Shown here: in pieces, positions 18,681-58,104 of the stretch
Numbering within the stretch: position 1 is the stretch's first letter
Layout of the letters: each line of letters opens with the position of its first letter
From: Planoprotostelium fungivorum
Taxonomy: Eukaryota; Evosea; Variosea; Cavosteliida; Cavosteliaceae
Length of the DNA stretch: 64,000 nucleotides
Assembly: GCA_003024175.1 (NCBI GenBank)
Contig: MDYQ01000040.1
Span: 1 to 64,000, forward strand
Reading direction: 5' to 3'
Position numbers and translations under genes: made by a program
Notes under the pieces: model-generated
The model's database searches: none
The model's input: the letters and a program-made list of their open reading frames with translations, nothing else
What the model was told of the DNA's origin: nothing

Positions 18681-20390
<1,710 letters not shown>

Positions 20391-22614: not shown

Positions 22615-24806
22615 TTATTTTAGGATCCTCTCCTTTGCAATGAGACGCACGGCAGTGGGTTGCAAGGTGATCATGGCATCGATCTTCAGAGAAGCCCACG
22701 GGTCAGGCGTGAAGGTGAACTTGCGGTAGAATGCCACCAGCACGGCCTTCATCTCCAAGAGGGCAAACTTCTGCCCGATGCAACTGCGCTCTCCCTTTGC
22801 AAAGGGGATGTATTGGAAGGGTGGAATGTTCTTTACGTTCTCCTCGTTAAATCTATCGAGAGTCATTCGTTGATGTCCATCGCGATGATGTTGCACCTCT
22901 CGGGATCGAATCTTGTAGGGTTGGGGAAGTACTGTTCGTTGTAGTGCATGGCTAAGACGTGGACGGAGCAACCGACGTCTTTGTTGATGTCGTATTGTCC
23001 TATCTTTCCCTTTCGATTGGTGTTCCTGGAGATGGCAGCTGAGGGAAGATCGGCATCAGATGACACAATGGGATTGTGATCGATGATCGTGTGTGTGATT
23101 GGGATGAGACGATGATCGATGATGAGATGGTGATCGACTCACGTCCAGGAGGGTACATTCTTAGAGTCTCTTTGATGATGAGATTGAGATACTTCAATCC
23201 ATTCAACCTCAAGGCCGTCAACTCCACATCACCCAGTGCGTCGATCTCTCTTAGTAACTGTCTGTGTGTCAGACGTATATCACTCTACACGACGATCTAC
23301 AATCTGCCACGATCTTCTCTAGATCTCGCGAGATGATTCACCTTGGCTTCTACTTCGGGATGTCTTGAGATGAGATAGAAGGCCCACGCCAGAGTGTGAG
23401 CGGAAGTATCGTGACCTGATCTGATGAGACAGATGGACGATGAAGATCGTGGTGGTGATCGCAATGATGATCAGAAGAACGTTCACGATGGAGGTTGATG
23501 ATGTGATGATGTGATGATGAAGAGAATGACAGACCAGCAAAGAAGAAGGTGATGCACTGATCGATGATCGTCTCCTCATCCAAGAGGTGTCCCGTCTCAT
23601 CGTCCCTCGCCTTCAGCATCGACGCGATGAAATCTCTCGTGTCCTGGATCTCATCTACAACGTGTCAACGCGATGAAACCCCCACGACCCACCCAGTTGG
23701 TCCTTCCTCTCCCCGACGATCTTTCTGATTTCAGAGCGTAAGGTGGAGATGTTTCGATTGTGCTTCCACAGCAGCCACGGGTTGTAGAGGCGGAAGGGAC
23801 TGTAGAATCTCCTCTGTGTTTCGAATGCTCCCTGTTCCATGCAGTGAAGGATGGTCTCTGTTCTCGCGTCAGGGTGAGGGGTGAGGGTGACTCACGGATA
23901 TTCTCTGCTTCAGTGTTGTCCACTCCAAAGACGGTCTTTGCGATGATGTCTAAGGCGACGGCGACGGTGCACTGTGGTGTCTCCATGAGCGATGTGATCG
24001 TGTCATGTGATCTTGCACGATCTTCATGGGCATGCGAGATGATGTGAAGGGATGGTGATTCTCACCTTGTCGATGTCGAACGAGGTCATAGATCCTACAG
24101 AAGGTCTGTTGGATGCATACTTTTCTGCCAACTGTTTGTGATGAGAGGACATCGCCGCATGATAAAATTCGTGTGACTCACTCTCTCTGCGTGGATCTCA
24201 GCTGTCCTGACCATGGTGGGGAGGAAGTTCTTCTCGATGTTGGCCACGTTGAAGGTCTGAGCCACTAGTTTGTGGGTCTTCTTCCATTCCTCTCCGTAAG
24301 TGATCAAGATGGACTTGCTGCCTTTAAAGATCAGATGGGATCATGTCGATGGACTCACCGACGAATCGAGAGATGAGATCGTACGCTTTGTGTTTCTCAT
24401 CGAAGGAGCCGCTGTTGATGATGTCTTTCGCCAACTGATGATCGGAGATACCGACTGTGTCGATTCAGATGTGTGAGCTCGGGTAAACAGACTCACCCAT
24501 TGGTAATTTGAAGAAGTGGATCTTGTAGATCGGAAGCATGGCGCTCCATCTGTGGAAGACTGAGGAGGGAAACTCTGCTGGCAGATAAGGAATGGCCCCG
24601 AGATAATTAGAGAGGGGAGCAGGTGTGGGGATCCTCTCGTCGACTCTGCCATTACGTGAGGAACGTCGACCGTCGATTGAATGTCTCTACCCTTCATATG
24701 CGTCTGCCTTTGTAAACTTGATGATTTTGTAACCGACGACAGATGCTGCTGTCGCAGCGGCTGTGGCAATCCACACGGCTGGTTGTTGCAGGAGTTGGCT
24801 GTCCAT
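22615..24806 (-). CDS. cytochrome P450 monooxygenase
   Basis: Heme-thiolate monooxygenase, probably ER-anchored. The start at 24806 gives MDSQLLQQPAV followed by an Ala-rich hydrophobic N-terminal anchor. Family landmarks on the minus strand, N to C: a GEEWKKTHKLVAQTFN helix-C region (Trp and basic residues), a DECITFFFAG-like helix I region (here DQCITFFFAG, near 23.55 kb), the helix-K ExxR in KETLRMYPPG (near 23.15 kb), an FDPER stretch (NPTRFDPERCN, near 22.9 kb) and the heme-binding loop FAKGERSCIGQKFA with its Cys ligand (near 22.77 kb). It is split by many short introns. The stop TAA lies inside an AATAAA signal. Diverges from the CDC123-like gene 239 bp away. Subfamily and substrate unknown. 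Confidence 0.85.
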
Positions 24807-26769: not shown

Positions 26770-27375
26770 TCATGCCTTTGGAACATCAAGGACGTCTTTG
26801 ATCATGGATCTCATCAGTGTCATCTCCGCCTTGCTGTATTGCAATTTCTCCAAGGCTGGAATCCATCAGAGAGGATCTCGATGATGATAACCTCACCATC
26901 GATCACTTTCTTCGTCTCCTTTGCAGAGGTGGCACCCGTATCACGAACAGTGGCTTCCAATTTGGTCTTCAAATCATCCAACTCTGGGAGATATTCTGCA
27001 ATGATTGTGATGATGTCTCTCTCTTTCTGAGCGAGATCTGTCCTTCCGTTCGAACTCATGATCTTCTCGGTTTCCTTGGATGACTGAGACATTTTGAACA
27101 AGAACTTGGCAACAGACTCTTCTGTCAACGAATCGGGGCCCTCTTTCGTTTGGTATTGTAACTGAAGGACTTGAGAAACTGTAGACAACAAGTAGAAATG
27201 CGATCACCTGTGTCTTAACTTTTCTCAATACGGACAATCTGTCCTTCTGTTGTGACTTTGTTGCGATCAAGATGTCGTTGTTCAAGCGTTTCGTAAAATC
27301 TTCTGGTGTTCCAAAGCTGAGCCCTCTCTTCTGAATGTTGAAGGAGTTCAATGGTATCAACCTGATGGATCTCAT
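26770..27375 (-). CDS. GatB/YqeY-domain protein, mitochondrial (AIM41-like)
   Basis: YqeY-domain proteins resemble the tRNA-binding tail of GatB; the yeast mitochondrial member is Aim41. The N-terminus (MRSIRLIPLNSFNIQKRGL) is basic and free of acids, fitting a mitochondrial presequence. Next come FTKRLNNDILIATKSQQKDR and SVLRKVKTQ, the typical first helices. After an intron comes YLPELDDLKTKLEATVRDTG plus the conserved ATSAKETKKVID. A 38-nt intron then restores ALEKLQYSKAEMTLMRSMIKD and the stop at 26770-26772. The start at 27375 is the ATG directly before the presequence. Lies tail to tail with the CDC123-like gene and downstream of REV1 on the same strand. Confidence 0.7.
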
Positions 27376-27643
27376 GCGTCCGATATTAGATCCCAACACA
27401 AATGCCGTCTGCATGATGTCGATGATGTGATTCTCTTTTCGTTCACTCCCATCTACAACCACTATCACCGATTTACCGTGAAGACCGAAGGGTTTAGAAG
27501 GCTTACTCGTCATCTGCAACGAAGGCACACGAACACGATCTTTCTGTAGACTATGTGTGCTCCTATCGAATGAACGAGATCCACCGAGTTCAATCCACAC
27601 AGTTACAGAAGAAGAAAACCGTCTCTGTGTCACTTTACAATAT

Positions 27644-34755: not shown

Positions 34756-35937
34756 CTATTGGCTCGGGACTCTGTACAGATACACACCGCTCAAGCTGTC
34801 TTCTTCCTTCCAACCAGGAATGGGGTTCTCCACAGACAAGACAAACGTTCCAGGTTTGGCCTCTTTCATTTTCTCTGCGAACCTGTCTCCATCATCAGCA
34901 CACGTTGACGATCATCATCACGTCACCTCTTCATCGTGTTAGGTACTCCAAAGAACAGAACGACGTCTGCGTCTTGGATGTCTGTCTTCCACAGATCACC
35001 CGTCAACTGGACGAGATCAGTCCATGATGTCGATGACGATGACGATGATCGATACAAGTAGGTGTGATGATGAACGTCGGATATAGAATATGAACGGTGG
35101 TGATCGATGCGAGCGATCGTGATCATGATTCGATCGATGATCGTGATGCTGATGATGAACTCACAAACTCGGCGTTCTCCGCTTCTTCATCATCCTTTGC
35201 ATTTTTCTTCGCCGTGCGGGTGAGCCACGGGTTGATTTCAATACCCACCGCTGTCATTCCATTTTTTGCAGCCTCGATGACCATCCTTCCATCTCCACTT
35301 CCTAAATCGACAAACTTTTTTCCTACGTCCATCATCACACATCTCACCATCACATGATGCGATGATGATGATGGTCTCACCTCTCAACTGCTTGATGGGC
35401 AGCATCTCGAACACGGCCTCCATGTTGTCGGGCGTGGAGGGCACGTATGGAATCTTACCCAGACGGTTGGTGTTGCCGATGAGATAAGGTACGGCCCAAG
35501 CGTTGAAGGCAAAGAGGCCACCGGCGGCTGCAGTGAAGATGCCGACGCGAACGGGTAATGGAAGTTTGTCGGTCAATCGAAGGTTGCCAGGATCTGAAGT
35601 GAACCAGTAGTCTTGAAATTCGACTCCGAGGTAGACGCAGGAAGCTGTGGGGGTGAGATGGATAAATGGGAAACGAACACACCTACGCCCAATACACCGA
35701 CGGCGGGAATCCATCGTCGTTTTGGAGTGTGTTCGAGGGTCGACTGTTCGGTATCATTCGATACGGTGGATGATTTCAGATTATCATCCTGTCAGCCGTA
35801 AGCGAACTTGATAAGGGATGAGACTCACTTTGGGCGAATTTGATTGGCTTCTTATGGTGTATTGAGTGGGTTTCAGCTGGCCCGGTCAGATTCAGATGCA
35901 GGGCAATCACCTCTCACCCTGATCTGTCTGTTGACAT
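34756..35937 (-). CDS. ATPSCKMT: ATP synthase c-subunit lysine methyltransferase-like (FAM173)
   Basis: A class I SAM methyltransferase of the FAM173 family, whose animal member methylates a lysine of mitochondrial ATP synthase subunit c. N to C: a Ser-rich start, a membrane segment (VGIFTAAAGGLFAFNAWAVP), NRLGKIPYVPSTPDNMEAVF (family KxGxPFVPTP), the SAM-binding motif KKFVDLGSGDGRMVIEAAK with GIEINPW, then DLWKTDIQDADVVLFFGVP and a tail ending GVYLYRVPSQ. The ATG at 35937 fits: MSTDRSG joins SQSNSPK across a 65-nt intron, which joins DDNLKSS across another. Its membrane helix and lack of a signal peptide fit an inner-mitochondrial membrane protein. Diverges from the Hsp70 fusion gene by about 350 bp. 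Confidence 0.8.
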
Positions 35938-36283
35938 TAGATTGGGATAACTTTGTACATCTTTGAAACGATGAAGCAACACCGTGTCTGATCACCGCAC
36001 TTCCGATCATCGTGATGTGATGTGATCAGATCGGACAGAAAATAAATCAACCATTTTATTCGTCCTTTCATGCAGCCATGATGTATGTTGTTCTCTCTGA
36101 CTTCCAATTCTATGAAGCTCGTGAAGGAGGGCAGGACTGATGAACAGCTTCCTTCTTTGAACGGTCTCTGCTTGTTCCAGACACGAAATTTCATTGAAAC
36201 TCGGCAAGGAGGATTTTGCCGCGAGACTGAAAACGACACAACATCAACACGAACATCACGAACAACACGAAAACATATAGAAC

Positions 36284-39200
36284 ATGAACGTACCAGTTGG
36301 TATTGATTTAGGAACCACTTACTCATGTGTCGGCGCTTGGTTGAACGGGAGAGTGGAGATCATCAGCAACGACCAGGGACAGAGGATCACACCTTCTTAT
36401 GTAGCCTTCACAGACAGTGAGAGGCTTTTGGGTAATGCCGCCTACAACCAAGCATCTTTCAATGCAGAGAACACGGTGAACAACTGGTTTCGTCCATCTT
36501 TCCTGACTCCTGATAGGTCTTTGACGTCAAGAGACTCATCGGTCGAAGTTTCTCTGATCCACTAACACAAGCTGATATCATCCAATGGCCATTCAAAGTC
36601 GTCTCAGGAAGAGACGATCGACCTCTCATTGAAGTCCAGTATCAGGGGCAACAGAGACTCTTCACCGCCGAAGAGGTCTCAGCCATGGTGTTGACCAAGA
36701 TGAAGGAAACAGCAGAGACATTCGTTGGGCACTCTGTACGCGACGTCGTCGTCACTGTGCCAGCTTACTTCAATGATTCTCAGAGACAGGCCACAAAGGA
36801 TGCAGCCTCCATCGCTGGACTCAATGTAGTCCGTATCATGAACGAACCCACAGCTGCCGCCGTCGCTTACGGTTACGATAGAGGAACCGAAAGAAAGAAT
36901 ATCCTCGTCTTCGATCTCGGTAAGTAGACGATCACACAATCATGATGGATCTCATATCGTTGCAGGTGGAGGAACTTTAGACGTGTCTCTGTTGAAAGTG
37001 GAGAATGGAACTTTCTCTGTCTTTGCCGTGTCGGGTGATACTCATTTGGGAGGAGAAGATTTCGATTCCAGATTAGTCCATCACTTTGCCAATGAGTTCA
37101 AGATGAAGAAGGGAAAAGACATCGGCAGGAACCCGAAAGCGTGAGTCCACCTTCAAATCACTTCTCTCCACCACGCACCATCATGTGACGGACCTGCGTC
37201 TGACACCCACCATAGATTGAGAAGGCTGAGAACTGCATGTGAACGAGTAAAGAGGGAACTATCTACACAGACGAGAAGCTCATTAGAGATCGATGCCCTC
37301 TACGACGGAGAAGATTTCGCAGCCACCATCACGAGGGCGAAATTCGAGGAACTCAACCGAGACCTCTTCGATCGTTGCCTGGCACCCGTCGCAGTGGTAA
37401 CCATCTCCCATCATCATCTTCACGATGAGACTGACCGCGATGATGCAGGTCCTGATGGACAGTGGTCTGAGAAAAGAACAAGTAGATGACGTGGTTCTCG
37501 TTGGAGGTTCCTCTCGTATACCAAAGATCCAGATCATGCTGAAAGATTTTTTCGATGGAAGGGAGCTGAAGAGGTCAGTCAATCCAGACGAGGCCGTGGC
37601 TCACGGCGCGACGGTCATGGCGGCAATTTTGGCGGGAAATCAGAAGAGGGACGACCACTTCATTCAGGACGTGGCACCGTTGTCGCTCGGCGTGGAGACC
37701 ATCGGTGAGAAAATGATTTTATTTCGTTTTATTCTTTCGCTGAAGAGTGTAGGTGGAGTCATGTCGGTTCTCATTGCGAGGTGGAATCTCTCGTGATGGT
37801 TCGTTGTAGATTGACGTCTCCTACAGAAACAGTCGAGTTCCCACGGAAAAATCACAGATGGTATCTACCACCTCCGATTATCAATCTTCCGTTCTCATTC
37901 AGATCTACGAAGGTAAAGAAATGAATCATCACGATATATCACATCATCACATCACATCGTCACACCATCACATCATCATCATCATCATCATCATCACGAC
38001 AACAACATCCAACTCCTATCAGGTGAAATGCATCGCACTTCATCCAACAATCTCCTCGGTAAATTCGAATTGGGTGGCATACAACCGGCCAGGAGAGGTA
38101 TACCACAGATCCTAGTCACCTTCCGTCTAGACGAGGAGTCCATCCTCTACGTCTCTGCCACAGAATGTTCCAGCGGCCGCTCGCAGAACTTGACCATCAA
38201 GAACGACAAGGGAAGGTTATCCAGCGAGGACATCGGCAGGATGGTAAGAGAAGCGGAAGAGTTCAAATCGAGGGGGGTGAGTGTCAGAAGTGTCAGATTG
38301 ACATGTGCTGACGAGATGGTGACAGTTGATGAACCAGAGGAGGCTGGAGGCGAGGAATTATCTTCAGCAGATGGCGTTTGCGTACGGTGACACCATCAGA
38401 GATATGAAGATTACGGCTACGGAGAGAGTTAAATTGCAGAAGGCGATAGAGGATACTCTCATGTGGATCGATGATAATCCATCGGCAGAGGAAGACGAAT
38501 TCGATTACAAGAGAGAGGTGTGTAGATGTACTCTGACGTCTCTCATTCGACATCACACTTGATCTTATGAATGATGAAAGATGAAATAGCATTGTACTGA
38601 ATGAGAGACAGTTACTAGAGAGGATATTTGGTGTAGTCCACGATGGAGCACTGAAGAGACAACAAGAAGAAGAGACGAGGGAGAGACAAGAAGCAGAGCA
38701 GAGAAGGATGGAAGAAGAGAGGAGATTGCAAGAGGCCAGGATGGCTGCATCTGCCCCTCCTGTGGAGACGAACCCGTTCATGATGGGTGATCAGGAGACA
38801 CCCGTTCAGCGAACGAATCCATTCACCGAAGAGTCCAACCCCTTCGTGATAGAAAGTCCAACTTACGTACAATCCGGTATCAATCTGAGTGAGATGACAC
38901 TCATGGCTCAGAGGGTGAGAAATCTTTTAATTTTTGTAAAAGGAATTATTTCTGAGCGTTATAGATGAAATTGTCTGCTGAAGAGAAGAACAAGAAAGAA
39001 GCGAAGGAAGCGGATGACATGATGGAGAACTGTCTCTCAGCCGTTCGGTGAGACATCACACGTAAGATATCATCTCATTCGATGCAGGAACGCCACACAG
39101 AGGCTGACGGCAGCCTCCGCCCAACGCATGAACCAGAGGCTCGAAGCCGACCAAGACGGCGAGGATCTAAAAATGGAAACAAACAGCAGCACCCTCCGAA

Positions 39201-40189
39201 GCTGCTCTTCCCTCGCCTCCGCTGTCACCGCCCTCGTACAAGCCGCCGCGGCAGCTCAGAAGCTCATCGGCCAGAAGAAGGTACGTAACCCGAAATCCCT
39301 CAGAAAACTCACCGAAAACAGAGCGACCAGCCCGTCTACAACGCCGATCGTACGTGGGAGAACGGATTCATCTCTGCCTCACGTTCCATCGTGGAATCCG
39401 TGCAGCAGCTCGAGGTCGCCACGTCATCTGAAACCATCGACCCGGCACTCATCACTGCCGCCGCTCGCTCGGTTGCCTCTTGCACCGTCCAGCTCATCAT
39501 GTCTTACCGATCGAAATTGGGAGAGGGCTTACCTCTATCAGACGATTTAGACGTCGCAGCCAGGGCCGTGTCACGCGCGGCGAGGGACCTGGCCGACATG
39601 ATGAGCCGGAGGGGACACGATGACGTCATCACGGTGGCGTCTACAACGAGCCAAGATACGTCCGGGGTGCTGAGCTTGAGAGAGAGGATCGAGAAGCAGG
39701 CGAGAATCGATCGATTGGAGAGGGAATTAGAGGAAGCGAGGCGGGAGCAGGGTCAAATGAGAAGGTCGGAATATTCCAACGCCAATTTGAACGCGGGAGA
39801 CGCCCATCTACAACGCCCCGCGGTACCTCCTAGGAGGACGAGCCAGCCCCCCGTCCCAATTTCCGGTCCCAATCCGGAGACTCCGATGGACTTTGGTGTG
39901 AACCCGATGATGATGCCCATCACGAAGCCGACCCTGAGGTCGCGTTCGAATTCATTAGAGAAGGAGTTTTATTCCTTAGAGGAACTGCAGAGGAAGCCAT
40001 CACCAACAGGAACCGATCTGAATAACCTGGAGGTGAAGAGATGATGGATGTGTCGGTGATGATGAACGGTGACAGATGTATCTGAGCGAGGAAGAGTTTG
40101 AGAAGGTGTTTGGAATGAAGAAGGAGGAGTGGAAGAAGATGCCTCTGTTCAGGAGGAACCCGATCAAACAGCAACTGAGACTCGTGTGA
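36284..40189 (+). CDS. Hsp70 fused to NPF motifs, I/LWEQ domain and villin headpiece
   Basis: Fourteen exons (36284-36475, 36517-36919, 36966-37140, 37216-37396, 37449-37704, 37753-37766, 37810-37912, 38023-38276, 38326-38517, 38612-38914, 38965-39047, 39088-39280, 39322-40032, 40076-40189) sum to 3,174 nt with matching phases: 1,057 residues. Residues 1-385 are an Hsp70 ATPase domain ([53 protein letters not shown]). Residues 386-590 are the substrate domain and lid ([31 protein letters not shown]). After a charged helix come NPF motifs at 644-646, 659-661 and 666-668. An I/LWEQ actin-binding domain covers about 685-880 ([41 protein letters not shown]). Then a coiled coil (about 901-930), a [11 protein letters not shown] stretch and a villin headpiece (1021-1057, [12 protein letters not shown] to [14 protein letters not shown]). 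No EEVD tail. Probably a cytosolic chaperone tethered to actin and to EH-domain endocytic proteins (inference). Confidence 0.85.
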
Positions 40190-40389
40190 TGAGATCGATA
40201 AAAGATGATCTGTTCGAATAGGAGATAAACATGGGTTATTGTTCTCAATCTATAAAGACCTGGATGATGAACGACATGTCATCGTCTCATTCGTTAGCTG
40301 CGAGGAAAATGTGATAATGTGAATAAATTAGAAGAATTGTTTGTAGATGAACGGTGAAGATCAGATCTGAGATCAGATCATCACAAGCA

Positions 40390-41115
40390 ATGGCCCAACC
40401 TAAGCAACAGGGAATCGATATCAGCCAGCTGTCTCTCGAGCAGCTTAACACCTTCAAACAGCAGTTCGAAGAGGTGAATCACACATTTCCGAATCACATT
40501 TTCAGCTCATATGGCCTCCTAACTCATGTTTAGGAAGTCCAAGTTCTATCCAACTCGTGGCAGCAGCTCAAATTAGCCAGTGAGTTTCTATTCTTCTTCG
40601 TTCTGTGGCCGTCGATGAAAATGCGATGGCCTTCTCTGATCTTCACAGGCGCACGCTTTACCGACTCGAAAGATGCGTTATCCGCCATCAAGACAGAGAA
40701 CGAAGGTACCTCCTTTCAGAATTATTGATGATGTTTACATTGAAAATCAGGTAAAGCCATGCTGGTCCCCCTCACAACCTCCCTCTTCGTTCCAGGGCAG
40801 TTGACCAATACCGAACAAGTCCTGATCGACATTGGAACTGGTTACTATGTGACCAAGGTGAACCCATTTGACAATCTTCACAACTGTTCTCATGTTCCTT
40901 CCAGCCGGTGAAACAAGCCTCAGATTTCTTCGACAGAAAGATCAAGATGATCAACGACAATGCAGATCAGGTACTTCACATCTATCCCGTCCATCTTCTA
41001 AAAACTTTCAAAGGTAGCCCAAGCCGTCAGCGTGAAGAGGAAGAACTTGGAATCGGTTCTGTTGGTCATGCAACAGAAGATCGGACAGATGCAAGGTCAG
41101 GCCGAGAAGGAATAA
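40390..41115 (+). CDS. PFDN5: prefoldin subunit 5
   Basis: Alpha-type subunit of the hexameric prefoldin chaperone, which hands unfolded actin and tubulin to CCT. The reading is [19 protein letters not shown] (family start), [48 protein letters not shown] and a C-terminal coiled coil ending [15 protein letters not shown]. The two long helices flanking a beta hairpin and the LVPLT-S-FVPG signature are diagnostic. Six short exons join over 40-60 nt introns. The stop TAA is embedded in AATAAA. Two neighbours (the Hsp70 fusion and the TBCD fragment) also relate to actin/tubulin folding or actin binding, but this need not be functional clustering. Confidence 0.9.
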
Positions 41116-48624: not shown

Positions 48625-50234
<1,610 letters not shown>

Positions 50235-50732: not shown

Positions 50733-53700
50733 TTACTTCTCCGGATGGCTCTCCGCCCATTGGTCGAGCCACTTTTCAAGAGACTCGACGTTCTTCTCCC
50801 TCCACTTCCGGTTGATGTCGATCTGCTCGAGCGCCTGGATGATGCTGCGGGAGCCCTTTGAGAAGCCAGAGTTGTTGAGGAAATCAGAGATCCTCTTCTT
50901 GTCTTCGGAGGTGGAGAAGAGAGAGGTGACTCTCTTGATGATGCCATCCATGACAAACGGGGCGTCGCCAAATTTGGCCTTTAAGAGATCAAAGTTTCTC
51001 TCAATGAACTCCCAGGTCTTCGTGCGACCGTCGCGGGAAGATCGAGCGATGTTGACGAGAGTCGATTGCATGTCTTTGGGCTTGATGATGTCCTATCATC
51101 TTCATCAGCTCCTCAACTTGATGTTGATGTCGTTGATGGTGATGTCGATGATGTGATTCTCACTGGGTTGAGTGCATCTTGCAGTGTGGATTGGATCTGT
51201 CCCACATGTTCATGCCTTCCAAACTTACACAGTGCAGCCAAGAGAACGTTCTTCTCTGTGGCAGATGTCTCCTTCAGGTAGGCATCCTTCATCCATTTGT
51301 AGTCCATCTCGTTGCTCTTGCTGGCGGCAGCAGCGTAGATGGCAGGGTTGAGTGCAGAAGAGGTATTGGTGGGTCTACCCTGTTTCTTGGCTTCGAAGAG
51401 TCTGTAGCCCTCGTTGATGGTTCTCTCGTCGCCGGCAGAGATGGCGGAAGTGAGAGCGACGGGTCTGGTGAGGTCATTAGAGGATGATCGTATGATGATG
51501 ATGATGATGACACATGTGATGATGAGTGTGTTTGTGTGATGATCGTGATCAGACATATGATGATGAGACACGTGATGATGTTGATCGTGTGATGATGCTG
51601 ATGAGAATGGATGGGATACCTGAGAAGGCGTGTAGAGTGTGATTCATCACTATCTTCCGACTCTGTGAAAGTGAGATGGTCCACGGTATCTCTCAACGTA
51701 GCGCTGATGAACCGCTGGAACGTCTCGTAAAACCTGCGAACCTTCAGAGGAGAGAGAGGACGTACTTCACCTCTGCTCGTCTACAAAAGGTCTCAATCCT
51801 CCGAGGGATCCCAGCGTGGTCCACCATGGAACGTAATCTCTCTCGCCCTTCATGTTTTTGACCAGTGAGAGGGGCTGGGGGAACGTCAATCGACGATTGT
51901 AGATGAGATGATGAATGATGAATATGATGATGTAGCTCGTTTGCATGGGAATCGATGTAGTGTGATGTGATGAAATAAATAAGATGAAACTTTCATGATC
52001 GGTTGGTGATCGTGTGATCGTGATCGTGCGATCATGATCATGATGCAAGACTCACATATTCAATGGGAACAGACTGAGCCAAATTGAGGGCAAAAGAGTC
52101 GGAGAGAAGAGAAGAACGAGTCTCGTCAGAGAAGACCAAGTGGTCTTCCTCCCATTGTGCGATGATACGATCGAGTAAGGCTTGATCGTAAGAGACACGG
52201 TAGTAACCGGAACCGTTCACGTTTAGAACGGCCCAAGATCCATCATCGATGATCTGTAGACATCAGTCATGCTGATGTGATCGACATGGTGACGTGATTG
52301 AGATGATGTGATCGACATGATGTGATCGACATGATGTGATCGACATGATGATGTGATTGAGCTGATGATGATCTTGATGATCACTCACCTCCGTGTGCTC
52401 TTCGTCGTACGCTTGAGAGACGAAATCGTCTCTCTTCTGAATGGTCAGGGGAACGTTCCACAACTGAGTCTCGTTGGTGGGAGAAGAAGTGTAGAGGAAT
52501 CGTCTCTGACTCAAATGGATCTTTCCATCGTCTCCGAGAGATGCATTCACGACAGGATATCCGACCTGTGATCATCAACATCATCACCATGATCGCGATC
52601 ATCATCTCGATCATCATCGTGACGATCGCGATCGCGATCACGACAGACATACCTGCTCCGTCCACGACTTCATGAAGCCGGTCACGTCTGTCTGTCCCGT
52701 CTCTTCTACGATATCTGCCCACAGCTGCGTCGACTCGGCATTCCTTCTTCCTTCAGCTCCCACCCACACCATCTCTCACCCGTATTCTCTCTTGGTCAGA
52801 TAATGATGGATTCCCTTGACGAAACTGCCCTGGGACTGTTTCTCCATCTTGTCACGGAGCATTCTGAGAACGGAAGCGCCCTTGCTGTAAGAGATGGAGT
52901 CGAACTGCTGGGTGATGACGTCGGCTGAGAGGATGGGAACAACGAGGGGGTGGGAAGAGTGGAGGGAATCGAGATCCATGGCAACGGATCTGTCCATGGG
53001 AATGAATTGACTCCAGATGTTCCACGAGGGGTAGACCTGTCATTGTCAGCATCATGATCATGAGGATGAGAAAGATCATGATGATGAGAAAGATCATGAT
53101 GATGAGAAAGATCATGATGATGAGAAAGATCATGATGATGAGAAGAACACGATGGTGAGAAGACGATGATGATGATGGGAGGTGATGTGATCATGATCGC
53201 GATGATGAGAAGATCACCAGATCAACTCCTTGGTATTCAACGAAGCTAGCGAAACCCTCGTTCAACCAAACGTTATCCCACCATCCCATGGTCACCAGAT
53301 TTCCGAACCATTGATGGGCCAGCTGTTATGCATCAATACGTACGATGTCACCGACGATATCTTACTTCGTGTGATATGATCATGGCGATGGATTGCTTCG
53401 AAGCCAGAGAAGAAGTGTTTGGATTCCACAGGAGGGCCTCGATACGGTAGGTGATGAGTCCCTGCACGAATTCAGCCCACTACAACCCGCCAATCACGAG
53501 TTTTCACCCAGTTTTCCATCGCACCCGAAGTGAAGTCGGGCAGGGCGATCATGTCCAATTTGGGCATGACGTAAGGAATATCGAAATAATCTCCGAACGC
53601 ATCTACAATCTGCCAAACGTGAGCCACCTCTACACCAAGATCCCACCTTCGATCCAGTCTCTGCTGCAAACCTTCCCTGCTCTACAACGAGAGGTGGTGC

Positions 53701-55362: not shown

Positions 55363-58104
55363 TTATGAGCAGAACAGTTGGGTCAGAGCTTCTAATGAAT
55401 AGTCCGACAACACTCGGTTCAATTCTTCCATCCGTGACTTCGTGTCCCTTCCTCTCAACTTCTGCTTGGCGATGAACATGTCGTGAAGCATCTTGGTCAA
55501 CTTGGCCATCTCATGAGGCATGGCCTTGTGTTCGCTCAAGATTTCATCTGCTTTACGAAGCAAAGAGGCGTTATCAGGTGATAGATAGCTCATGTCCTCT
55601 CCCTGCGTCGACAGCTCCTGCATCACCTTCAACATCGATGAGACCCGTTGCCTCTCACTTGTAAACTGACGACAAATTTGACTCGCTTCTCGAGCTGACA
55701 CTGACGTTCGATTCTCGGATGCATCATCTTCAGACAATCCGCGACGGCTGCATCCGATACAGTGGCAACTGCATTTAAGAGGGTCCCCCTGACGCTGGCC
55801 TCTTTCGTCATGATATCCTTGATGATGGACAGTGCTGATGTAGAATCACTGCGCAGAATCGCCTCACCCTTTCTAAAGTATCGCGTTAAAGAGGATGAAG
55901 AACCTGCGACTCACTGGTATTTACAGAGCAATAAGGTTTTCGTCTGGCTGTCTCTGAAATAAAGATCCATGATGTCTTTCGGTAATCTAAGACGATGAGA
56001 TCCACGTGACTCGTGATGACCTCACATTTCGGGGACATTAAATAAGCACAGAGATAACCATGCATTCATCTCAGATAAGCTGAAAGCTCCCGTCAACGAC
56101 AACTCATGAAACTGTCTGTTCTCTACTTCTTTCTCTGATATGCGAACGTGCAGCGGTAGAGGCTTGATGTCAATCTTCACCACCTACCCTTCATCAATGA
56201 ATGGATACGTATCATAGACATCACCTGACAGGACCGTGGAGAAGTCAGGGGAATGACGTAAGCCTGCAGGGTCCCACCCTTTCCCTCCTGTGTGTCGACT
56301 TTGAACTGAGCGCGGTTGACTTGTTCTAAAATTCTGCCTGAACCGAGGTAGAAGTTTTCGTCTTCGATGTTTTCTTCAGTCTGTGGAGATGTGGACGTAA
56401 TCGATGCACTCTTGTCAAAGTCTGAGACGGTGAGGCCTGGCACGTTCGATTGAAACAGGACACTATCCAGTGGCATGGGTAACTGCTGGCGGTTAACGCG
56501 GGAGATTTGAATTTTGAATATCTGACCTCGACGGAGAATAACCAGACACCTCCTTCGGCGTCGAACCAAAATTTGTGATTGACTTTGTACTGAGGCACCA
56601 CAGCGACCATCTCCTTCGATAATTTACCATATTTCACCTTAGCTTTCTCCACCTACCATCTTTTCAATTCTATTTCCACATCACTCATCTCTCTTCACCT
56701 TGTCCGCCAACTTTTCCAATTCAGATCGTAAGCCTTTTATCCTCTTGTCATTCTGCTCTTTCACGAGAGGATTCGACACAAACGTGTTTGGCTTCGATCC
56801 AATCAACTCCACGGGTCTGCCTCCACTGAAGACGACGATTTTCCCTACCATCGTTCACATCCTCTCCTCAGTTGTCAATGCGAGAGAGACTCACCCGAAT
56901 GTGTCACGAGGACGATCTCTTGACCCTCACCCTCCAGAGCCATTCCAACGTCCATGGCTTGAATGGATTCTCCGACGTTCACGCGAGAGATACGTCTAGG
57001 TGGTTCTAAAGGAGTGTCTCCCGCCGCATATACGTCTAACAATCTGATGTCTTCAGTCGTGATGAAGGTGAAGGTGATGACGATCGTCGCACCCATCATC
57101 TCTTCCGATCACGATGTGATCGGGGCCGGTGGGGTTGTTCCAGAGAGATATGCAATTGACGGCGGAGAGAGTTTCAGATGGAGGTAAAGTCCAACCCTTC
57201 TTCGCCTGAGATGAATCGACTGTGACGGAGCCGAGGCCACCTGATGCAGTACCGTAGAGATAAGTCCTGACGAGGTTTACAAGTGAGATGAGGTGATGAG
57301 CGCACCTGTCCTTTGAGTTCTCCTTTGTGGAGTATCGCTTTAGAGCGGTCACAGGTGCTCCTGTTTCGACTTCGAAGAGGAGGGTTGATTTCTGTAGAGG
57401 ATGAGACGATGTGAAGACGGTGAGCATCACACACCCGGACTACTCGGACGTGACCGTCGTGACAACCAACGATGGCTTCTGGATCTGCATTGTCGGTGAT
57501 GTGATCGGCGAGGATATCATGTACCTTGTCTGACACGATCAGACTCTTGACATCCTAAACAATCTGGCCTTCACCTCCGTTCAAATAGTTATACTTTTCT
57601 TTCTTGTCTGCGTACATCATGATCGAATGAGTTCCTGCAACCCAAATTCCTCCTTCCACTGATAAACAGCCTATCGGCTCTGCAATCAGTACATCGATCT
57701 TGAACGTCTCTCTTCCCTTCTCGCGTGAGATGATTACGGAAGTGATGTCTTACCTTTCGATTGATCTCGTGAATCGTATTACCGGTGGACACATATATGT
57801 CCTCTTTCAAAACGTTACGCTGTGGCGCTCCCAGTCCAATCCTCAATATGGGCTTGTTATCTGCCACCTGCATCTTCCATATAACCTGATGATGTGTCGG
57901 TCGAAGCAATGTAACCTCTCATCTCACAGCAGTATCGACTCTCTTCAAGTGTAGACATTGCAAAGTTCCTCCATCGTCTCCCACCACGACGTGCTGCGTA
58001 GCTTTCGTTCCCGGTGGAGGTGGAAGTAAACAGAGAGAACGACCAGATACGGGACCGATCAAGTGAATATCACTTCTAACAAACTCGATTTCGTCTCCAC
58101 TCAT
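55363..58104 (-). CDS. BBS7: Bardet-Biedl syndrome protein 7 homologue (BBSome subunit)
   Basis: BBS7 is a beta-propeller/appendage subunit of the BBSome, which sorts membrane proteins in cilia. Landmarks N to C: TKATQHVVVGDDGGTLQCLH (animal: TQKVVIGDHDGVVMCF), IWKMQVADNKPILRIGLG, DIYVSTGNTIHEINRKG, GGIWVAGTHSIMMYADKK, EAIVGCHDGHVRVV, HIVIGRDDG, EIVLVTHSGE, a short coiled coil (KRIKGLRSELEKLADKVK), then the appendage with GTLQAYVIPLTSPRSCQV (animal GTLQAYVTPRIQPKTCQV), HELSLTGAFSLSEMNAWL, and a helical C-terminus ending YSLEALTQLFCS. The ATG at 58104 starts MSGDEIEF. Short introns throughout. Same strand as the aminopeptidase 267 bp downstream. Strong evidence for a ciliated life stage. Confidence 0.85.

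Follow-up and report, generated by a model that had tools for sequence, protein, structure and literature searches.

Hsp70 chaperones are normally generic engines that are steered by separate co-chaperones: their cycle requires J-proteins, and class B J-proteins as well as TPR proteins are partners that require the C-terminal EEVD motif. I/LWEQ and villin headpiece domains bind F-actin, and NPF motifs bind EH domains. In Dictyostelium, talin B ends with an I/LWEQ domain, a proline-rich region and a villin headpiece, whereas talin A and other talins are said to be without the headpiece extension (excerpt of PMC6449030). On its own, the tail of talin B bundles F-actin and co-sediments with it, it locates at the leading edge, and its high-affinity binding to F-actin needs the headpiece (same excerpt). 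As described in a part of PMC6912373, NPF motifs serve endocytic adaptors as ligands of EH proteins, and HSC70 that is recruited by auxilin disassembles clathrin coats. Here, we describe a gene of Planoprotostelium fungivorum in which these elements are joined: it lies at positions 36284-40189 (+ strand) of a window of 64,000 nucleotides (contig MDYQ01000040.1, positions 1 to 64,000). We lean towards the reading that this is one gene for a cytosolic Hsp70 whose co-chaperone tail has been swapped for a charged stretch, an NPF linker and a talin-B-type actin tail. In short, the fusion is best described as Hsp70, NPF linker, talin-B-type tail.

A single frame from the Hsp70 to the headpiece

Using a splice model, Pfam and codon scoring, the fusion gene was rebuilt with 14 exons that form an in-phase single frame of 1,056 residues plus the stop; the 13 introns are all of the GT..AG type and have 40-110 bases. 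The single 14-exon frame proposed in the initial annotation was thus borne out, its 1,057 being the 1,056 residues with the stop counted, and its junctions at 38518-38611 (intron 8, which decides between one gene and two) and 38915-38964 (intron 10) agree with our rebuild. A Pfam scan of the protein gave nine matches at E values up to 1. The HSP70 match covers residues 5-592 (profile positions 2-587 of 599) with 728.4 bits at a cut-off of 20.6, I_LWEQ covers residues 788-933 (66.4 bits, cut-off 27.5), and VHP covers residues 1021-1055 (46.8 bits, cut-off 27). With 52.6 bits, MreB_Mbl likewise exceeded its cut-off in a section of the Hsp70 region, as expected from the actin-type ATPase fold that is common to both. 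With these scores and the phased frame, the fusion and its domain list as initially annotated (Hsp70, NPF, I/LWEQ, villin headpiece) proved right.

Four lines of evidence speak for continuity across the two halves. First, if intron 8 is spliced, the residues that come next, LLERIFG, carry on the lid pattern of Hsp70s (ELEQV, ELERV): compared with three Hsp70s over 11, 5 and 7 residues, the continuation has BLOSUM scores of 6, 7 and 12, and the same or a better score is reached by 1.8%, 1.5% and 0.3% of the peptides from the three + strand frames of the window. If the intron is retained, the scores against the same Hsp70s are -3, -6 and -7, and a stop follows at 38560-38562. With three references that are short and related to one another, the test lends support but is not a strong one. 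Moreover, the acceptor was picked by homology: up to 38797, 37 AGs were listed, of which 13 preserve the frame, including one at 38605, six bases upstream. Second, in a codon scoring that compared six frames and excluded each exon from its own training, the annotated frame came out on top in 13 of the 14 exons. The miss is exon 6 (28 bases), and exon 7 has the top frame but a negative score (-1.2). Scores of +29.0 and +11.8 were obtained for exons 10 and 11, which bridge the halves. Third, synonymous codon use is indistinguishable between exons 1-9 and exons 10-14 (permutation p 0.45). Fourth, from the start codon at 36284 to the ATG of the next gene at 40390, the sole AATAAA on the + strand is found at 40322-40327, past the stop, a result which presumes that AATAAA is the signal, and it may not be that of the host. 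As drawn from the genomic sequence, the model of the fusion gene is robust.

A diverged cytosolic Hsp70 without the EEVD tail

The Hsp70 half has complete homology to the nucleotide-binding domain (NBD), the substrate-binding domain (SBD) and the lid. The NBD (36284-37652, exons 1-5 with introns, delimited by Pfam and PDB sequence matches) begins at the N-terminus, without a signal extension. It is followed by the interdomain linker (37653-37670), the substrate-binding beta domain (37671-38211, exons 5-8 with introns, its end being approximate) and the helical lid (38212-38644), which by homology extends across intron 8 and ends 11 codons into exon 10. Among the best 60 of 168 PDB sequence matches, HSPA1A is the best (753 bits), and HSP70A, which we take to be the Chlamydomonas protein, BiP and SSB1 reach 744, 681 and 625 bits. 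The alignment to HSPA1A covers residues 4-600 with 343/596 identities (58%), and 345/590 positions are identical to HSP70A, whereas HSPA1A and HSP70A share 452/596 (76%). By these alignments, the Hsp70 half is a diverged cytosolic paralogue.

The divergence is not evenly distributed. On columns that are invariant in HSPA1A, HSPA2 and HSP70A, which is a narrow set, the fusion keeps 212/283 in the NBD and 61/90 in the beta domain. For single functional positions we relied on residue lists and a numbering for the nucleotide site, the J-domain contact, the substrate pocket and the latch that we presume to be correct. All 21 listed nucleotide-site positions are kept (D10, T13, K71, E175, D199 and T204 among them), and since this is so, the ATPase of the fusion looks competent. 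Five of the six listed J-domain-contact positions are kept as well, and so is the arch position V438.

The absence of the EEVD of cytosolic Hsp70s, as remarked in the initial annotation, was confirmed by a scan of the whole fusion protein. Its place is taken by about 450 residues. They open with a charged stretch rich in Glu, Arg and Gln (38645-38752) that, from its composition, is probably helical.

An NPF linker and a talin-B-type tail

Three NPF motifs are found at 38771-38845 (TNPF, TNPF and SNPF at residues 643, 658 and 665). Each follows a T or an S, thus conforming to (S/T)NPF, and all are within 25 residues. None of 2000 shuffles of the protein reached three NPF motifs (mean 0.06), and the cluster reported initially therefore holds. 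From this cluster we predict an EH-binding linker.

A PDB sequence search with the tail matched 22 distinct sequences. The I/LWEQ core and the C-terminal dimerisation helix (39107-39780, intron 12 included, placed by Pfam and PDB matches) align over residues 725-935 with talin-1 R13-DD (50.6 bits, E 1.9e-12), with the dimerisation helix covered. Sla2 and HIP12 scored 42.7 and 34.0 bits, the latter with a shorter construct; construct lengths differ and the margin is small, so that the ranking is not decisive. A proline-rich stretch (39817-39885) contains a single SH3-ligand match (PxxxPR/PxxPxR, residue 948) that is not above chance, since 240 and 400 of 2000 shuffles reach it. The villin headpiece spans intron 13 (39955-40186, residues ~994-1055, from Pfam and PDB matches). 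Its homology extends to the N-terminal subdomain: the matches are near full length for dematin (18-67 of 68) and supervillin (5-62 of 67, covering residues ~994-1051 of the fusion), and abLIM2 and villins were matched as well. The order of the tail is therefore I/LWEQ, dimerisation helix, proline-rich stretch, villin headpiece, and we call it talin-B-type because the order of I/LWEQ, proline-rich stretch and headpiece matches talin B. We predict that the tail binds and possibly bundles F-actin and that it dimerises. None of the nine Pfam matches is a FERM or talin rod family.

The initial annotation had spoken of an endocytic actin adaptor. The actin tail stood up to our analysis; of the endocytic part, nothing beyond the three NPF motifs did, and the order of the tail is that of talin B. 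As a whole, that label is only partly supported.

Points against the reading and alternative explanations

Several observations weigh against our reading, and they concern the chaperone, the tail and the junction between them. In the Hsp70 half, only 2/9 invariant columns are kept in the linker and 21/40 in the lid. The linker motif DLLLLD has become DHFIQD, with the central F and I still hydrophobic. Of the listed substrate-pocket positions, 12/21 are identical and 9/21 changed, 5/10 latch positions are kept, and the arch residue A406 is Ile. Because linker, lid, pocket, latch and A406 are altered, both allostery and client binding may depart from those of a standard Hsp70. These changes, together with the lower identity to HSPA1A than that between HSPA1A and HSP70A, agree with an explanation in which the Hsp70 is an altered head, i.e. 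a regulated scaffold or ATP switch, and a talin-B-like actin crosslinker is the working part. However, the nucleotide site, the J-domain contact and V438 have been retained as set out above, and we regard this explanation as unlikely, though it deserves more weight than those that follow.

For the tail, the actin contacts of the headpiece, as we assume them, differ at two points: the cap tryptophan is a Phe, and one basic residue is a Gln. A fold prediction for exon 13 alone, made from one sequence, gave a helical bundle with a pLDDT of 70.4 and a pTM of 0.52. This model had no PDB fold match at E values up to 0.001, and talin R13-DD came eighth with E 0.23; as modelled, the predicted structure brings nothing past the sequence evidence. 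With the 366-residue tail as the query, four pattern matches in a viral contig collection and 19 in prokaryotic genome contigs were obtained, none of which was confirmed, both collections being poor in eukaryotes. Finally, the talin B tail alone failed to rescue a talin-B-null strain (excerpt of PMC6449030), and it therefore localises but is no substitute for talin.

The initial annotation saw in the fusion an uncoating or folding chaperone linked to actin at endocytic or adhesion sites. In a clathrin-uncoating version of this view, the NPF motifs would lead it to coated pits, the tail to the actin of invaginations, and recruitment by auxilin would be bypassed. The NPF cluster in the linker fits this idea, as do the disassembly of coats by HSC70 and auxilin and the use of NPF motifs for EH proteins in adaptors (in the part of PMC6912373 cited above). 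In contrast, the AP-2 motifs DPF/DPW and FxDxF are absent from the fusion protein, as is NPxY, and the two clathrin-box matches, both inside the Hsp70, are at chance level (446/2000 shuffles reach two). The tail has the order of talin B and not that of Sla2/HIP1R. Clathrin uncoating without auxilin found no support, as the Pfam matches include no J domain. We consider this explanation improbable.

Could the locus be two adjacent genes, an Hsp70 that ends at 38562 with intron 8 retained and a talin-tail gene that starts from an ATG at 38708 or 38965? Exon 11 opens with the ATG at 38965, which may be a scar of the fusion point, the start of a formerly separate tail gene, and exon 10 has in-frame ATGs, the first at 38708. 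The gap from the retained-intron stop at 38562 to this ATG is 145 bases, little shorter than the 200 bases between the stop of the fusion and the ATG of the next gene. Moreover, three hipA-related genes of D. purpureum have a C-terminal I/LWEQ fragment only and are possibly pseudogenes (excerpt of PMC3188802), an analogy which suggests that such tails can exist apart from their parent genes. Against this stand the lid homology that runs on into exon 10, an exon 10 that is open including 38612-38707 and has the codon score of +29.0, and the lack of an AATAAA before 40322. A separate start at 38965 is unlikely because this ATG would overlap the stop at 38966-38968 that is reached if exon 10 is read through. 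Two genes are thus decidedly improbable. An assembly chimera of two unrelated contigs, which the initial annotation had itself named among the things that would undo its reading, is hardly credible: the gene is known from one record and the GC content at third codon positions (GC3) is somewhat different between the halves (0.57 vs 0.66), but the in-phase splice restores the lid homology, synonymous codon use is alike, and a scan of 35500-41000 found no direct repeat of at least 25 bases that could cause a misjoin and one imperfect inverted repeat pair confined to exon 13. Both the two-gene and the chimera explanation are unlikely on this evidence.

A putative actin-tethered chaperone

Returning to a single gene for an Hsp70 with a talin-B-type tail, the product is most likely an actin-tethered, possibly dimeric Hsp70 for cortical clients; this function we infer from the domains. 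The tail would dimerise, bind F-actin and possibly bundle it, and Hsp70 heads thus anchored at cortical actin would perform ATP-driven substrate binding. The NPF motifs could engage EH-domain proteins of the Eps15/Pan1/EHD type and so gather the fusion at endocytic or phagocytic actin sites, and the clients would be proteins that are unfolded or assembled there. J-proteins would remain necessary because the fusion has no J domain among its Pfam matches, and partners that require the EEVD should fail to engage it.

It is tempting to go further and to see in the fusion a hard-wired dimeric cytoskeletal chaperone that reaches F-actin by its talin-B-type tail and EH sites through the NPF motifs it carries, with covalent targeting in place of targeting by J-proteins or EEVD partners, and that perhaps repairs force-unfolded proteins on actin. 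To this more specific proposal we give somewhat less than even credence. The repair of force-unfolded actin-linked proteins, as with HSPA-BAG3 on filamin, would be an alternative setting to the endocytic or phagocytic one. If the proposal is true, the fusion offers a natural test of whether a fusion can stand in for chaperone targeting, and a handle on the need for the on-site refolding of actin-linked proteins, which has been studied for filamin in muscle (excerpt of PMC10262806).

Novelty and genomic context

A protein with Hsp70, I/LWEQ and headpiece was not found in the literature searched, eukaryotic protein databases being outside this search. Where Lweq is named alongside Hsp70 in the texts retrieved, these are separate, unrelated proteins or reference entries. 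The portions of PMC12686525, PMC9453864 and PMC8821504 at hand hold no headpiece or Hsp70 fusion, and the portion of PMC1702346 holds only a cited title that names a talin homologue with a headpiece. The parts of the fusion are known; their combination did not turn up in the literature searched, nor did the tail in the viral and prokaryotic contig collections.

Among the neighbours, the next gene (40390-41112, + strand, exons joined by eye) begins 200 bases past the fusion stop and has a Pfam Prefoldin match of 84.9 bits; we take it to encode prefoldin subunit 5. The fusion and the prefoldin subunit gene are thus two adjoining chaperone-type genes. A methyltransferase-like exon upstream of the fusion on the opposite strand (35168-35353, -; Pfam DOT1, 26.1 bits) presumably resembles FAM173/ATPSCKMT. 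Farther away on the + strand is a tubulin-specific chaperone D (19225-19527; ARM_TBCD_2nd, 135.8 bits). The - strand carries a cytochrome P450 (22624-24464; Pfam match in exon 22624-22866, the remaining exons judged by eye), a YqeY-like domain (26856-27435; exon 26856-27143 has 40.7 bits and a weak second piece 13.8 bits), a PH domain followed by a protein kinase domain (48842-50081, the kinase pieces singly under the Pfam cut-off), presumably an Akt-like gene, and exons of an M1-family aminopeptidase (50781-52997; Peptidase_M1 and ERAP1_C). The tail by itself makes an amoebozoan source plausible. An exon of a BBS7 homologue (55417-55656, -; BBS7_hp 64 bits, PDB BBS7 27.9 bits) suggests an organism with cilia. 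No tRNA (ARAGORN, bacterial code) and no Rfam match were found in the window.

Comparison with known systems

With cytosolic Hsp70/Hsc70 proteins such as HSPA1A and Chlamydomonas HSP70A, the fusion has in common the complete NBD, SBD and lid as well as the listed nucleotide-site residues. It differs from them by the residues in place of the EEVD, by its altered linker and by an identity of about 58%. HIP1R and Sla2 provide an actin link at endocytic sites and have an ANTH domain N-terminal to the I/LWEQ domain; to our knowledge, they are without a headpiece. The I/LWEQ domain with its dimerisation helix is common to them and the fusion, whereas the fusion has the headpiece and has no ANTH domain among its Pfam matches.

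CHIP/STUB1 docks to Hsp70 through the EEVD, and this is not possible for the fusion. In chaperone-assisted selective autophagy (HSPA-BAG3-STUB1, filamin), Hsp70 acts on mechanically unfolded actin-linked proteins, which is like the role proposed here (excerpt of PMC10262806); there, separate co-chaperones do the recruiting, whereas the fusion would have its actin binder covalently attached. NPF motifs are a feature that the fusion shares with EH ligands such as epsin and Dab2 (excerpt of PMC6912373), but it has neither a membrane-binding domain among its Pfam matches nor an AP-2 motif or an above-chance clathrin motif. A close likeness is that to the Dictyostelium talin B tail (residues 2225-2614), with which the fusion shares the order of I/LWEQ, proline-rich stretch and headpiece, as judged from the described order, and whose construct has 390 residues as compared with 366 from exon 11 to the end of the fusion (excerpt of PMC6449030). 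Where talin B has a FERM head and a rod, the fusion has an Hsp70 head and an NPF linker instead.

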